From NCBI GenBank assembly GCA_015956445.1, contig WIUZ02000010.1:682001-746000 (forward strand): a stretch of DNA of 64,000 nucleotides. Direction: 5' to 3'. The notes beneath the pieces were generated by a model. That model searched no databases. It was not told the origin of the DNA and was given only the letters and a program-made list of their open reading frames with translations. The stretch comes from Thelephora terrestris (lineage: Eukaryota > Basidiomycota > Agaricomycetes > Thelephorales > Thelephoraceae). The translations under genes and the position numbers were made by a program. Positions 37,526-43,691 of the stretch are shown here, piece after piece; the first letter of the stretch is position 1, and each line of letters opens with the position of its first letter.

Positions 37526-40140
37526 GCCACACTTTCATTTATCAGCTGATAATTTGTAGCATTAGTCACCACGTAAAGCACAGACCATGCAGTGCTGTGT
37601 TTGTATCATTAGTATAGTTACGTGTCACTGTCACGTCACAAATCTAAGTAGTATATATACTCAGAGTAGTTTAGCCTGTACTCCTTAGATTTGTTATCAT
37701 CAGACTCTCCGTGACCTCTACTGCTGTGTGCTTAGAGCAAGAGTGCCTGAAGACCCTTGTCTCCTTCTTTTTCCTCCTCTCCAATCTAGTCTGTGAAGAG
37801 ACTTCTGATATCCCTGGGTTTGCAACAGGGTTATAACTGTGTGTTTGACCCCTGCGTGTGATAGGTTTGGATAGCAAGAGTGCTATTGAACTGTAGAGGT
37901 CGCGTTGGCCTGACACTGGGGTCTGGAAGGATGCTTTGCAAAGGCCAGTGAAAATATCCCAGGTCTGTCAGGGCCACTCTACCCCAACAACTACCAGTGC
38001 ACTGAGCCGACTCCACAGAGTACTCACTAGTCCAACTAGCTGTGAGAGAATGATCACGTCTCTATTCTTCCGGTAGGTTGTCCGAGGTCACTACAAGTCA
38101 GGTCGAAATCCTAAAGGGAAACCCAACCTAAACCATGCTTCGCTTGGTTTATCCAACAAGGGTTTATCCCTACAGCAGGATTGATGACTCCACCAGGGGA
38201 TCGACTGGACGCTCAAGGTGTTCTATAAGCTGAACGCTGGGGTTCTATAGTTACGAGGCACAGTTGAGGTGCAGAGCAGGAGGGAGAGCAGATGGGGGAT
38301 GTCTTGGGTTCAAACAGAAAACTCTGACTTGTCCTTAACTGCAACTGGGCTGAGAAGGGCAGAGGATTTCCTGAGGTAACAAAACTAAGGTACTACGATA
38401 CAGCCACAGTTGCTACTTATACTAAAGGAGTGGCCATGACGTCAGTAACCCTAATATACCCTTATCAAGACAGAACAAAGGGAGATAAGGAGTGTGAGAA
38501 CGCTAAGTAAGGGAAGCGAACAAATATGACGCGTGGGAGAATAAAGGACAAAGGGCCTTACTAGCGTGTGAAGGAGTGCATAAGAGACAACAATAGTCCG
38601 CATGAAACATAGGAGTAAAGATAACACTAGTCCTAAAAGAAATAGGGGCATGGGGTCATAAAAGTTCGTACCTGGGGATCACACCCAAGGGTCAGGTGAG
38701 AATCTTCTTGGATGCTTCCTTTGGAGAGGCCAAAGATAGAGACCATTCATCATCCCTTGTTGTCTGTAGGCGGTAACAGCATCACGAACTAGTGGCAACC
38801 TCAACGTACGTTGACATGCCTCCATTCTCTGGAGTACTCGTCGGCGACATTCCCTACGTCCCTTTCCCTCGGGATGCTTCGCGACGTTTCGCGACGTTTC
38901 TATACTCTCTATACCTCCCTACCCCCCCCCTATGCATCCCTATACTTCCCTACATACCCGTATATCTCCCTTTACCTCACTACTCCCTTCCCTATACTAA
39001 CCTACTCGTCCCGATGCTTCGCGACCTTCCCGATGTTTTAGTATTCTCCCTATCTCTCGCTACCCCCCCCCCCCCGACCTCCCTATATCCCTCCCAACAC
39101 TACACCATTTGCGACCCCTCCCTATATCTTCTCCCGACTTCCCTATACCTTCGCGATATCTCCCTACACCATTCCCCTCGATCTCTTGATCCCTATGCTT
39201 GATCATTCCCTTTTGGTTCATTTCTCAACCACATCTCTTTCCTTGGTCGTTCCCTTCGATCCCTCGCCCTCCCTATGTCATAGACTCGTCATTAGGTCTT
39301 TTGACATCATTTGGTTCGTTCTCTCTTGCTTCCTACGTTCTCAGAGCCTCCTAGATTAGTATATATGCCTCTGTATTCAATAGACTCAGCAGAGACCAAT
39401 CCAGGGGACTGATTCCCATGTTTTCCTCTCCCTATCGTTCTCCTCTCATCGTCATCGTCTCCCTATAGTCTCCTGCATCTTCCCTATCGTTCTCGTCGTC
39501 ATACCTGCATCCCTGCGTTCCCCTCGTCGTCTCTAGCGTCCTGTCGTCATCCCGAAGATCCCGACCTCCCGAAGTTCTTGTCGTCGTCCCGAAGTTTTCC
39601 CTCGTCGTTCCTTTGTCTGTTTTATTGATTCCCTTCTGTTATCTTTAGTTATCTTTAGTTCCCTCTTGATATCTACTTCTCCCTACACATCCCAACGTTC
39701 CCGACATTTCCCGACATTTCCCTACAGTTCCCTACGTGTCCCTACGGAGCTAGGAGGCATCGTACGACCAAGGACCATCTTCATCGACGTTGACAGGGCA
39801 CCCCATCTTCTCCCCATCGGACCTTAGCCCACATAGCCCCTGTTCAACGTCCAAACATGAGGAGGTCGGGCCTAGACTCATGGGAATGAGGGATTACAGA
39901 TTCGCCGGTGTTTCACGCTAACGGCTACTTCCACATTCGCTGAGCTAAACAAAAGGAGTCTAAGGCACTCCTTCTGAATAACGGCAATTCCTTCCTCCGG
40001 TTAGGAGACTGTGATGTGACTGTCCACGTGTGTGATCAGGGTCCAGGGTTGATCGTAATCGTAAAGTCATGAGGGGTCGTAAAAGGGGTTCGTGATGTCA
40101 TAAAGGGGTCATCAGGGTCTTAAGACCTATTTTAGTGCGC
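37526..40140. other. 2.6 kb without genes: promoter-like, low-complexity and purine/pyrimidine-biased DNA
   Basis: No coding sequence is visible on either strand. A second TATA-like motif (agtatatatact) lies near 37652, in sequence that resembles a retroelement leader but has no ends I can define. 38870-39760 is polypyrimidine (separate entry). 39760-40140 is mixed sequence leading into the candidate LTR. Confidence 0.6.
38870..39760 (+). repeat. Polypyrimidine, CCCTA-rich degenerate satellite-like tract
   Basis: For almost 900 bp the plus strand is dominated by C and T. Variants of ccctat/ccctac recur every 5-20 bases, with sub-blocks rich in cgtcgt and cccgaag/cccgac. There is no constant period, so it is not a simple tandem array. 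It ends abruptly near 39760. The open frames inside it are low-complexity artefacts. Confidence 0.75.
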
Positions 40141-40340
40141 TGTCGGACCCCAGGATTATCATTATTTATTTTACGATTTAACGCACAATTTATACTCAAC
40201 AGACTGGTCAATGGATTATTTAAATGATTTAAATATTGTTTAATCCAGATAAGATTAGATAACAGAAATCTAATTATAATCCATTATAGATAAGATAAGA
40301 TAAGGACCCTGAAGATTAGATCAAGAGATCAGATAGCCAT

Positions 40341-40532
40341 GGAAAACCATGGAATATCATAGAATCTCCCGGAACATGCTGGAACATGCTGGAACATGCT
40401 GGAACATTCTAGAAGGTGACGGAACGTCACAAATGTGATGATTTGTCACACAAAGAACAAGACGGAAACTAATGGAACATGGCGGAATCTTACGGAATAC
40501 TGTGGAAGGTGCTGGAATGTTCTAGAACATTC
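40341..40532 (+). promoter_or_regulatory. Phased RGAA array ending in a perfect heat shock element
   Basis: RGAA (mostly GGAA) starts at 40341, 40351, 40361, 40371, 40381, 40391, 40401, 40411 and 40421, and again at 40454, 40464, 40474, 40484, 40494, 40504, 40514 and 40524. That is exactly one per 10 bp in each block. 40402-40414 reads GAACATTCTAGAA, and 40515-40532 reads GAATGTTCTAGAACATTC, a perfect 18-bp palindrome of four alternating GAA/TTC units. Both match the heat shock element (nGAAnnTTCnnGAAn); the 10-bp-spaced GAA units match the step-type form. The palindrome ends 14 bp before the TATA box. Confidence 0.75.
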
Positions 40533-40545
40533 TTGTGTAAAATAG

Positions 40546-40553
40546 TATATATA
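40546..40553 (+). promoter_or_regulatory. TATA box of the candidate LTR
   Basis: The sequence tatatata lies 14 bp after the heat-shock-type palindrome and is followed by a C/A-rich probable transcription start region (cctcaaccccac). This is the only strong TATA box in the segment. Confidence 0.6.
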
Positions 40554-41157
40554 GACCTCAACCCCACTTCTAAGAGAAAAGACAGGTACCTACTGCTCAG
40601 GAGAAAAGCACAGTTTGCTCTATCCACACATCAGCTGAGCATCCTTTTGCTCAGTGTCTCTTTTCCCCCCCACTTTACATCTACCCCCTCTCTCTCTACA
40701 TCTACCCTCTAAAGTATCTACCTCAATTCCCTTAGGACTGATTGGTTGAGTGATTTGAGCAATCACATACCATATTTTAGCCCTACCCTCTGTGAGAAGA
40801 AGTTCTAAGTCAGAAGAACTGAATAAGCTTAGTACACTTGAGACGTTGGAATCTTGGTATCTGTAGTACTAAAGTCTGAAACTTTAGGCAGATAACCCCA
40901 CCTCAGAGAAGTGACTGACTGAGTGACAGCCAGATTTAGCAGTACCACAAGGACTTACGACATATTTTACGACATAGGTTTATTATCTGAAGATTATTGA
41001 AGACATATCAGTTAGACGTACTAGACGTCATCTGCAGCAAAGTTTAGGGTATCAGTTATACCCTCCCAGTTTTACGACATATCTTGTCACCTTTACAACA
41101 TATCTAGCACAGCCCCAGGTGTAAGTGTACACCTTCCCTTTTAGGTCTAGTCACACG

Positions 41158-41282
41158 ACACAGCCTCAACACAGCCTTAGGCATAGCCCTAAGCCCAGCA
41201 TCAATACACAGCCTCAATACACAGCCTTAGGCACAGCCCTAAGCACAGCATCAAAGCACAGCATCAAAGCACAGCCTTTGGA
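41158..41282 (+). repeat. Imperfect ~48-bp tandem repeat inside the candidate LTR
   Basis: A unit containing cacagcct(c/t)a...cagcc(c)taag..cagcatcaa occurs a little over twice in tandem, with a shorter sub-repeat (agcacagcatcaa) at its end. The repeated words are cacagcc, ttaggca and agcatcaa. Confidence 0.7.
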
Positions 41283-41953
41283 ATTCAGCCTCAAACACAC
41301 CCTTTGAGCACCCCCCTCTTTCCCCCTCCCCTTTGGTCTACCTCAGTAGATCATCCCCTCCACTCTTGATCTCCCCTTAGATCAGGAACTCCATTCCCAT
41401 CAAATCACCACCAAACCCCCACACACCAGATAAGTGTCTAATCAAGGAACAGGAACAACTGAGTGATATAGTACGTCTGATTCCCTTGGAACAATACTGA
41501 AGGACACACTCACAGAGTAGATCCCTCAGCGAACTCATCAGGTCCGAGAGCCGGAAAGAGGAACCCCGCTCACCCTGTGGAGTTGTTAGTCGCGTTCATA
41601 GACTACTCAACCAGCCTGCTTAGCTTCTATACACTTAGTCTCTAAGCGAACCAACTGGGTCTAGTTATCTTCTGTATAGAACATAACACTACACCACCCA
41701 CGAGCACGACAGCGCGCGCGTTCTAGGCGTTCCGGAACGAAGTTCTTCCAAGGCCGTCCCGCGGGCCGAGGTGTCAGCTTGATGTAGTAAGCCAACGATG
41801 ATAGTACAGTGGCGGAAGTTGATGTGACCCGGACCAATGAGGTTTGTCGAGGTAGGTCACGTGAAGGATCACCGATCTAGGCTATAAGAAGGACGTCTTC
41901 TTGGAGCCATCCTTGATCAGCAACACCAGCAACTTCCCCATCCTCTTACCAAC

Positions 41954-43691
41954 ATGTCTTTCCCCAACAACCATACCTACAAGGTCGCCAATGGTATCTC
42001 CACCATCTCTCACATCGACCGTCGTGCTGCTGCTCGCAAGACCTATGCCACTACGGCGGGGACTCCCTATACCACAGATGACCAGGTATGGGGGAGGTCT
42101 AGAGCTTCGTGTGTTTGCACTAACGCCTTCCTCTAGGTAGAGGTTCGTTCTTTAGGGCGTTGATGTCCAGCTAACGGCTTCTAGGTCTTGGAGATCGTCA
42201 AGGAGGTGGACGCCGAACGTCTCAGGGAGACGATCCCTCATTTGATGGGGTTGACCTGGGACGATGAGCTCTGGGTCTGGTCCATGATTGCCGAGAAGGT
42301 GATTTTCCAGATGAGGGGTAGGTTCGGGGAGTTGGAGCATCCGATTAAGAAGGAGCTCTGGTACACCCTGCAAAGGGGGATCTACAATCAGGACCTGTTG
42401 GAACACGGGGCAACCGTTCCTCGGGCCGTCCGCCATGCCACCGCTTCTACTACACTGTTGTGGTCACTCGTTCGGGAGGGGGAGAGCCGGGTAGGTTCTC
42501 CGTTTGAATATTTGAGTATGACTCTCGACTAATCAAACTGCCTAGGTTGAATGTTTGGAGCGCGAGGTGAAGGAGGCAAAGGCAGACGTCCTTCGTCTGT
42601 CGGCAGAGGGTCTGCTGATGAAGGAGACTCTGGCTGCCTTCCAGCAGGGGACGAATGAGGCGTTGGAGGCGATGGTTGCTAACCATCAAGAGTTGGTCGC
42701 CGGGCTGAAGGTCAGGGATAACAACATCAAGGGGGCGTTGGCCAGGAGGGATGAAAAGGTTCTTTCAGCCTTTGCAGGTTTATGCAATGACTGAGAGACT
42801 TCTTCTAGACGGAACAGCTCGAGGACGTGGTGGCCGCATTGACGGCGCAGGTTGAGTCCTTACAGGAAAAGACCTGCAACTGCCAGAAGGGTCCTGTGTT
42901 GGTTGGTCAGGGGACCGCCGATGTTCCGTTCGAACTGGAGTACGCCGACGAGGTGGTACTCCCATCGCCTAACCCGTCGTCTTATGCGACACCTCCGATC
43001 GAGAACTCGGTTCCCATCCCGACTCCGGCTCCTGCTTCCATGTTGGCCGAGTCTGACAAGGAAAACTGCCGGCGCTGTCTGTTGCAGCCGATCAGTCAGC
43101 TGGTCAAGATTGAGGATGAGGTCATGGAGGTTGACCGGGCCGAAGATGTTCCAAGGGCCATGGAGGTACGTCCGGTGACAACAGGGCAGCGTTGTAAACG
43201 CTCTTGACGCCGCGTTGCTCATCGCATGGCGCCTTCCGCTAACCCGTACCCTCGACCAGTTGAGTCGGATGGTGACCAGTCTGGTCGAGATGAGGGACAT
43301 GGGTACCGATACCGGGTCAACCGTCCCTACCGACAGGTCGAGTCGGAGATCCAGCTTCGCCACCAGCTTAGACTCGCAAGACAGGATCCCACCCAGGGTT
43401 CCGACAAGGGAGACGGAGGGTCACTCGCTGACTACGTCGATAGTGCTGCCGGGCAGTCACCCGGTGATGGAGATGTGGGACCAGGTGTTCCGCAGTTCGG
43501 TGACATCTGGGAGGCTGATCGGTCCGCTCGAAGGTATCTCTTCTTATCGGCTTGAACTAGTTGTTCAGCTGAGCGCTGAAGATGGTGACGCCATGTTTGG
43601 AGAGGTCCTTGCGAGGAGGGGCCAGCACTACGATCTCCGGGATGGACGTTTGATGACCATGAGGCCTGCCGTAGATAGAGTCGACTTTTGA
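41954..43691 (+). CDS. Coiled-coil protein of unknown function, five exons
   Basis: A TATA box (ggctataagaag, about 41880) precedes the ATG at 41954 (MSFPNNHTYKVANGISTI). Exon 2 encodes a compact helical domain (LTWDDELWVWSMIAEKVIF, YNQDLLEHGA). Exon 3 encodes a coiled coil (VECLEREVKEAKADVLRL). Exon 4 encodes AALTAQVESLQEKTCNC followed by an acidic/proline-rich segment with LVKIEDEVMEVDRAED. An intron (about 43168-43260, gtacgt...gaccag) keeps phase into LSRMVTSLVEMRDMGTD and the last exon, stop 43689-43691. If that intron is not used the protein ends at 43205-43207. The intron before exon 4 has a weak donor (gttctt). No family is recognised. It parallels the gene at 36098 in layout. Confidence 0.65.

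Follow-up and report, generated by a model that had tools for sequence, protein, structure and literature searches.

A ladder of GAA units at 10-bp steps beside a TATA box marks a Ty3/Gypsy LTR lineage of Thelephora terrestris as a candidate Hsf1-driven promoter

Results

Two blocks of phased GAA units in a solo LTR

We analysed a 64-kb stretch of the genome of the basidiomycete Thelephora terrestris (contig WIUZ02000010.1, positions 682,001 to 746,000; hereafter the window), in which a solo long terminal repeat (LTR) of 1571 bp, located at 40141-41711 on the forward strand like the array features described below, carries a long array of GAA units next to a TATA box. The LTR starts with TGTCGG and finishes with CGACA (TG..CA ends) and is flanked on both sides by a short target duplication, GCGC, at 40137-40140 and 41712-41715. 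These boundaries, proposed in an initial annotation made from the letters alone, proved exact, and a joined BLAST match spans positions 1-1571 in 31 of the 39 other copies.

Block 1 of the array (40341-40424) holds nine RGAA units, with GAA starting at 40342, 40352 and so on to 40422, and block 2 (40454-40532) holds eight, with GAA starting at 40455, 40465 and so on to 40525, so that our recount agrees with the 17 units, nine and eight, at exact 10-bp starts that had been described. An A or a G precedes GAA in all 17 units, and three identical GGAACATGCT units occur in the array. Taking a step-type heat shock element (HSE) to be at least three GAA/TTC units of the same orientation at 10-bp steps, and a perfect (4P) HSE to be four alternating GAA/TTC units at 5-bp steps, the two blocks constitute step-type elements of nine and eight units, and block 2 merges into a perfect four-unit HSE (GAATGTTCTAGAACATTC, 40515-40532), an 18-bp palindrome that includes its final two units. 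A perfect three-unit HSE (GAAcaTTCtaGAA, 40402-40414) lies inside block 1 at units 7 and 8, and counted in the 5-bp register of HSEs the array contains 20 GAA/TTC half-sites, 10 per block. The palindrome had been placed 14 bp from the TATA box (TATATA, 40546-40551); it is indeed perfect, and the gap is 13 bp.

The phase is exact within the blocks and not between them: 33 bp separate the start of the closing unit of block 1 from that of the opening unit of block 2, across a spacer (40425-40453) of subfamily-dependent length with GTCAC/GTGAT-type motifs (40416-40450). Strict helical phasing over both blocks was rejected on the basis of this distance, which is 33 bp in subfamilies A and B, 34 in C, and 86 and 75 in the relatives D and E (see below). 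Elsewhere in the window no chain of GAA at 10 bp exceeds two units, the longest such chain of TTC has four (from 39698, in a different repeat), and the sequence outside the LTR contains seven clusters of three or four half-sites in the HSE register, none larger. A chain of more than five steps never arose in Markov-simulated U3 sequences (2 x 20,000 sequences, orders 1 and 2; 40,000 trials).

The U3 region is A+T-rich (G+C 0.352), and its distal part bears a cluster of five GATAA motifs (40248-40303), which we take to be possible GATA-factor sites; GTCAC/GTGAT-type and GATAA-like motifs were also seen by eye in D and E. In the part of the LTR that follows the TATA box (40561-41711) the observed/expected ratio of CpG is 0.30, versus 0.94 in the window and 0.70 in U3, a pattern that methylation of the element might leave.

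The LTR belongs to a large Ty3/Gypsy element

The assembly (40.6 Mb, 60 contigs) yielded 40 scored matches to the array among 137 first-look candidates, and all 40 loci were fetched. These rows comprise seven 5' LTRs, nine 3' LTRs, fifteen solo LTRs and nine of unresolved type, and they divide into three subfamilies, A with 5 rows, B with 23 and C with 9, three further rows being truncated or degenerate. Matching 4-bp flanks were found in 15 of the 40 rows, the solo LTRs, and the flanks agree in four of the five LTR pairs tested and disagree in one. A target preference of the form NCGN was observed, CG being central in 14 of the 15 four-base duplications of solo LTRs.

ACTGGAGCC, which includes the TGG of the primer binding site (PBS), follows seven of the 40 rows, and a common 3' junction precedes nine. 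A short inverted repeat, ACTGGA..TCCAGT, surrounds the PBS just 3' of the 5' LTR. Paired LTRs thus enclose a PBS and pol genes; the LTRs of six pairs, in B and C, stand 13.7-24.6 kb apart, which points to very large elements, the longest of which may include nested insertions. Over 1014-1590 aligned bases, the two LTRs of a pair differ by 0-2 substitutions, and one pair also has an indel, a near-identity that signifies recent insertion. Reverse transcriptase (RT), RNase H, H2C2 (integrase zinc-binding) and rve (integrase core) domains follow one another in this order in single frames in three copies, with RT below cut-off in one; integrase after RT and RNase H is the Ty3/Gypsy gene order. In Copia elements integrase precedes RT, and membership of ONSEN/COPIA78 was rejected on this ground. 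Matches to an aspartyl protease (upstream) and to DUF4100 were below the Pfam cut-off. No chromodomain was detected in 18 frames (Pfam, E 0.01), in which SH3_Tf2-1 matched weakly, below cut-off, and the element was not classed as a chromovirus. One first frame extends over ~2650 codons by frame arithmetic, and a 1010-residue stretch of this ORF1 matched nothing in PDB at E 0.1 and nothing in Pfam above cut-off. Among the papers listed in a literature search, none appeared, by title or opening of the abstract, to report very large Ty3 elements in mushrooms.

The window copy ends 243 bp upstream of an ATG at 41954 in the same direction, with a TATA-like CTATAAG at 41882, and the open reading frame from 41954 is a candidate gene for LTR-borne heat control. 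A Pfam scan of six frames adjoining this LTR returned nothing above cut-off.

The 10-bp phase is kept in most copies

The initial annotation had proposed to check whether other copies retain the 10-bp phase while the intervening bases vary, and this holds for A, B, D and E and less so for C. Subfamily A has 9+8 units with the phase kept in 5/5 rows, B has 8+8 units with the phase kept in 23/23 rows, and C has 10+8 units in two of its nine rows. Block 1 of A and of B differ in length by exactly one 10-bp unit. The relatives D (L075) and E (L076), of which one copy each was read (that of D out of 40 scored matches among 139 candidates), follow the same grammar with 11+4 and 10+4 units. Copies of D in the same orientation are often ~17 kb apart, with spacings of 10.7 and 13.6 kb also seen. 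The gap between HSE and TATA box could be measured in 42 copies and is 13 bp in 41 of them, a count that takes in some degenerate HSEs and both LTRs of pairs, and 16 bp in one, a 43rd copy having no measurable HSE.

Subfamilies A and B form a mosaic, differing at 5/1162 sites after the TATA box, at 16/193 upstream of the array and at 25/111 in the spacers, as would be expected if lineages had swapped U3 during reverse transcription.

GAA is conserved while the spacers diverge

Comparison of the subfamily majorities for A and B revealed no difference at 48 GAA sites and 25 at 111 spacer sites (Fisher p=7e-5), and the corresponding counts were 3/48 versus 29/111 for A-C and 3/48 versus 35/112 for B-C. 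Because gain or loss of units could inflate the spacer differences of block 1, we counted block 2, which has eight units in A, B and C, separately. There GAA and spacers differ at 0/24 versus 15/56 sites for A-B (p=0.0037), 1/24 versus 14/56 for A-C (p=0.031) and 1/24 versus 17/56 for B-C (p=0.0091); block 1 alone gave 0/24 versus 10/56 for A-B (p=0.028) and 2/24 versus 19/56 for B-C (p=0.025). Strictly fixed differences number 0/51 in GAA in all three comparisons and 19, 25 and 30 of 119 in the spacers, and within A and B GAA is not polymorphic at all (0/255 and 0/864 letters).

The same pattern emerges when the array is read by phase. In units 1 to 6 of block 2, the differences among A, B and C, by phase from the G of GAA, are 0, 0, 0, 4, 3, 4, 2, 2, 3 and 0 (each of 6), and the invariant part of these six cleanly alignable units is GGAA and nothing else. 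Over all rows the minority frequency is 0.003, 0.011 and 0.024 at the G, A and A of GAA and 0.06-0.18 at the other phases, and the purine before GAA, invariant in the six block 2 units, has a minority frequency of 0.065. TEA-type sites (CATTCY) and other GGAA-binding families, considered as candidates, were set aside because the base that follows GAA is not constant.

In 8/10 arrays neighbouring spacers resemble each other slightly more than non-adjacent ones do, and clearly so in window block 1 (3.88 versus 2.5 of 6). The proposal of the initial annotation that the exact period with varied intervening bases reflects selection rather than slippage is thus mostly borne out, GAA being kept while spacers diverge; the one-unit difference between A and B, the identical units in the window and the likeness of adjacent spacers indicate that gain and loss of units contributes too. 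Slippage likely had a part in the origin of the arrays; simple slippage as the main account was rejected, because in block 2, where A, B and C have neither gained nor lost units, nothing but GGAA is invariant. The array is real, widespread and under sequence constraint in most rows examined.

GAA ladders and perfect HSEs are enriched genome-wide

Four GAA at exact 10-bp steps occur 1189 times in the genome (639+550), a count in which a long chain scores several times, versus 305 (145+160) for the reversed pattern. At 9-bp steps there is no enrichment, with 132 matches (58+74) versus 113 (45+68). By hand count, the first 100 of the 10-bp-step places listed comprise 85 in the LTR families, 9 in the repeat adjoining the window LTR and 6 in neither; identity of letters was the sole basis of assignment for eight of the 85 and two of the 9. 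The perfect four-unit HSE was found at 54 places, versus 6 for the reversed pattern, and 39 of the 50 places listed fall in these LTR families.

The adjoining repeat, at window positions 38809-39850, is very abundant, LTR-like and ~1.04 kb long, and bears TTC at 10-bp steps, namely the four units from 39698. It has 45 matches (of 503 first-look candidates), the long ones 91-97% identical, and several copies lie 3.7 kb apart in the same orientation. The perfect four-unit HSE also occurs in inverted pairs 3.2-3.4 kb apart (C21:106975/110408 and C56:2161825/2165052), perhaps the terminal inverted repeats of a DNA transposon.

Host HSF genes and heat shock promoters

The HSF domain has six matches at five loci of the genome. 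One of them (L050) is a gene with SFVRQLNMYGFHKV that matches the solved domains of HSF1 and HSF2 and looks like an Hsf1 gene, and two of the loci carry the SFVRQLNKYDFHKVK helix, which we take to be Skn7-like. Among host heat shock genes, one HSP70 promoter contains HSE clusters of five and six units, one of them with three step-spaced GAA. An HSP90 promoter has one perfect three-unit HSE, and a single cluster of three units also occurs at a second HSP90 locus. Outside the LTR families, an intergenic HSE of eight half-sites (L074, 722-764), chosen by pattern match, lies upstream of a TATA box and a small frame.

Discussion

An Hsf1-driven promoter as the favoured reading

We read the ladder as an extended step-type HSE that makes this Ty3/Gypsy LTR an Hsf1-driven promoter, and give this reading a probability of roughly three in four (0.74). 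Judged by its sequence, the array is very likely an HSF-binding promoter array and the LTR is likely heat-inducible, suggesting that heat or a similar stress turns the elements on. We infer Hsf1 as the binder, as well as heat induction and cooperativity. A ladder bound by Hsf1 in step mode, together with perfect HSEs by the TATA box, is the most economical account; an HSF reading fits both the least variable positions of the array and the one host HSP70 promoter.

The array would accordingly act as the enhancer-promoter of a young, multi-copy LTR lineage, whose intact copies carry 8-11 and 4-8 GAA units spaced by one helical turn and running into perfect or near-perfect HSEs beside the TATA box. 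Upon heat or proteotoxic stress, trimers of the host Hsf1 would cooperatively occupy both the perfect HSEs and one face of the ladder. The bound Hsf1 would drive transcription from the TATA box, which lies 13 bp further downstream, and genomic RNA would then be made while the heat shock response is on.

Several observations weigh against this reading. In C the chains are broken in 7/9 rows by A-to-G changes within GAA, and GAA varies there like the spacers (9/384 versus 22/896), which may mean that C is losing the constraint. The A-C contrast falls short of significance when block 1 is taken by itself (2/24 versus 16/56, p=0.077), and as the copies share descent, our tests, which count sites, overstate the number of independent events. 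The HSP90 promoter has only its perfect three-unit HSE, and no HSE cluster was found in the promoter examined of a mitochondrial-type HSP70 (class read from the N-terminus). Step and gap HSE types are, moreover, reported to be weaker on average than perfect ones (PMC5059998). Finally, the stepped TTC of the repeat at 38809-39850 and the 305 matches of the reversed control indicate that decamer expansion is not unique to the LTR family, and the five HSF-domain loci mean that another protein of the HSF family, even a repressor, could bind.

The last of these points leads to an alternative that we consider unlikely, namely that the binder is a Skn7-like or Sfl1-like HSF-domain protein and that the LTR answers oxidative or developmental signals or is repressed. 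The two loci with the SFVRQLNKYDFHKVK helix lend it substance, but 10-bp steps and alternating GAA/TTC are the arrangements reported for Hsf1 in the parts of PMC4894976 and PMC12772356 that concern it, and one host HSP70 promoter has the same arrangements. Quite improbable, in our estimate, is a functionless decamer repeat, generated by slippage and unequal exchange, in which the phase persists since insertions and deletions come in 10-bp units. It would account for the three identical GGAACATGCT units, the exact 10-bp difference between block 1 of A and B, the likeness of adjacent spacers and the further decamer repeats of the genome; it does not account for GAA being kept while spacers diverge, even in block 2 where no units were gained or lost, or for the nearly fixed distance from HSE to TATA box.

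We find it very improbable that the 10-bp phase is there to bend DNA or position nucleosomes and not for a sequence-specific factor: AA is phased at exactly 10 bp in an A+T-rich U3, as such a role would have it, yet the G of GAA is no less constrained than the AA, and the arrays merge into palindromic HSEs. Still less credence goes to a former HSE that is now decaying, with present transcription depending on other U3 motifs such as the GATAA cluster. That cluster exists, and constraint is not visible within C, but A and B rows are free of GAA polymorphism and B includes very young full elements.

Starting from the Hsf1 reading, a broader scheme may be put forward, tentatively and with more doubt than belief: a unit-counted Hsf1 ladder that becomes stronger or weaker as whole 10-bp units are gained or lost and as subfamilies swap U3 modules, in a lineage that owns most of the genome's strongest HSEs, such that heat would mobilise the elements and redistribute Hsf1, and with it heat-responsiveness, to the genes beside solo LTRs.

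Comparison with known systems

LTRs with nGAAn clusters are also found in ONSEN/COPIA78, whose LTR is bound by HSFA2 (PMC3907296), and in other heat-responsive COPIA elements of Brassicaceae, which use the heat stress factor of their host (PMC3907296, PMC5059998). The Brassicaceae elements are Copia and, as far as these sources describe them, have four nGAAn motifs (six in TERESTRA) of perfect or gap type, whereas the element studied here has the Ty3/Gypsy order and 17 GAA in step ladders. In Caenorhabditis, HSE-bearing Helitrons likewise contain dense HSE clusters and account for much of the HSE content of the genome, up to 46.2% in C. elegans; those carriers are DNA transposons, while the carriers here are LTR promoters (PMC6927752).

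Closer relatives by host are TCN12 and TCN3 of Cryptococcus, also basidiomycete LTR elements with putative HSEs, of which the former mobilises almost only at 37 °C and the latter transposes in vitro only at 37 °C; they have one and two putative HSEs with no step ladder described in the parts of PMC12810828 that treat them, in contrast to the long ladder reported here. The same source states that heat-shock-induced activation of transposons via the host machinery is undescribed in fungi. MAGGY of Magnaporthe, a fungal LTR retrotransposon, is reported to be activated by heat shock and other stress (Ikeda 2001, as cited in PMC3978060, where the term "heat shock element" is absent), so a fungal heat response is not in itself new; a proven HSF route would be, if the statement in PMC12810828 holds. 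Among the papers listed in searches of open-licence literature, none showed, by title or opening of the abstract, a fungal LTR with a ladder of step-type HSEs.

Four types of HSE have been described (PMC12772356), among them the step type, known as nTTCn7TTCn7TTC in S. cerevisiae and in a shorter form in C. albicans (PMC4894976). The known step-type elements share the single orientation and the 10-bp steps and, as given in these sources, have two or three units, compared with up to 11 here. To summarize, an LTR with HSEs is of a known kind, and a long step ladder carried by Ty3/Gypsy elements of a fungus is a new form of it. With its young copies, many solo LTRs and subfamilies that differ in unit number, the family offers a strong candidate cis-element, one that would permit a direct dose-response of step units versus heat induction, and the Hsf1 reading, if true, would raise the length of step-type HSEs from two or three units to as many as eleven.
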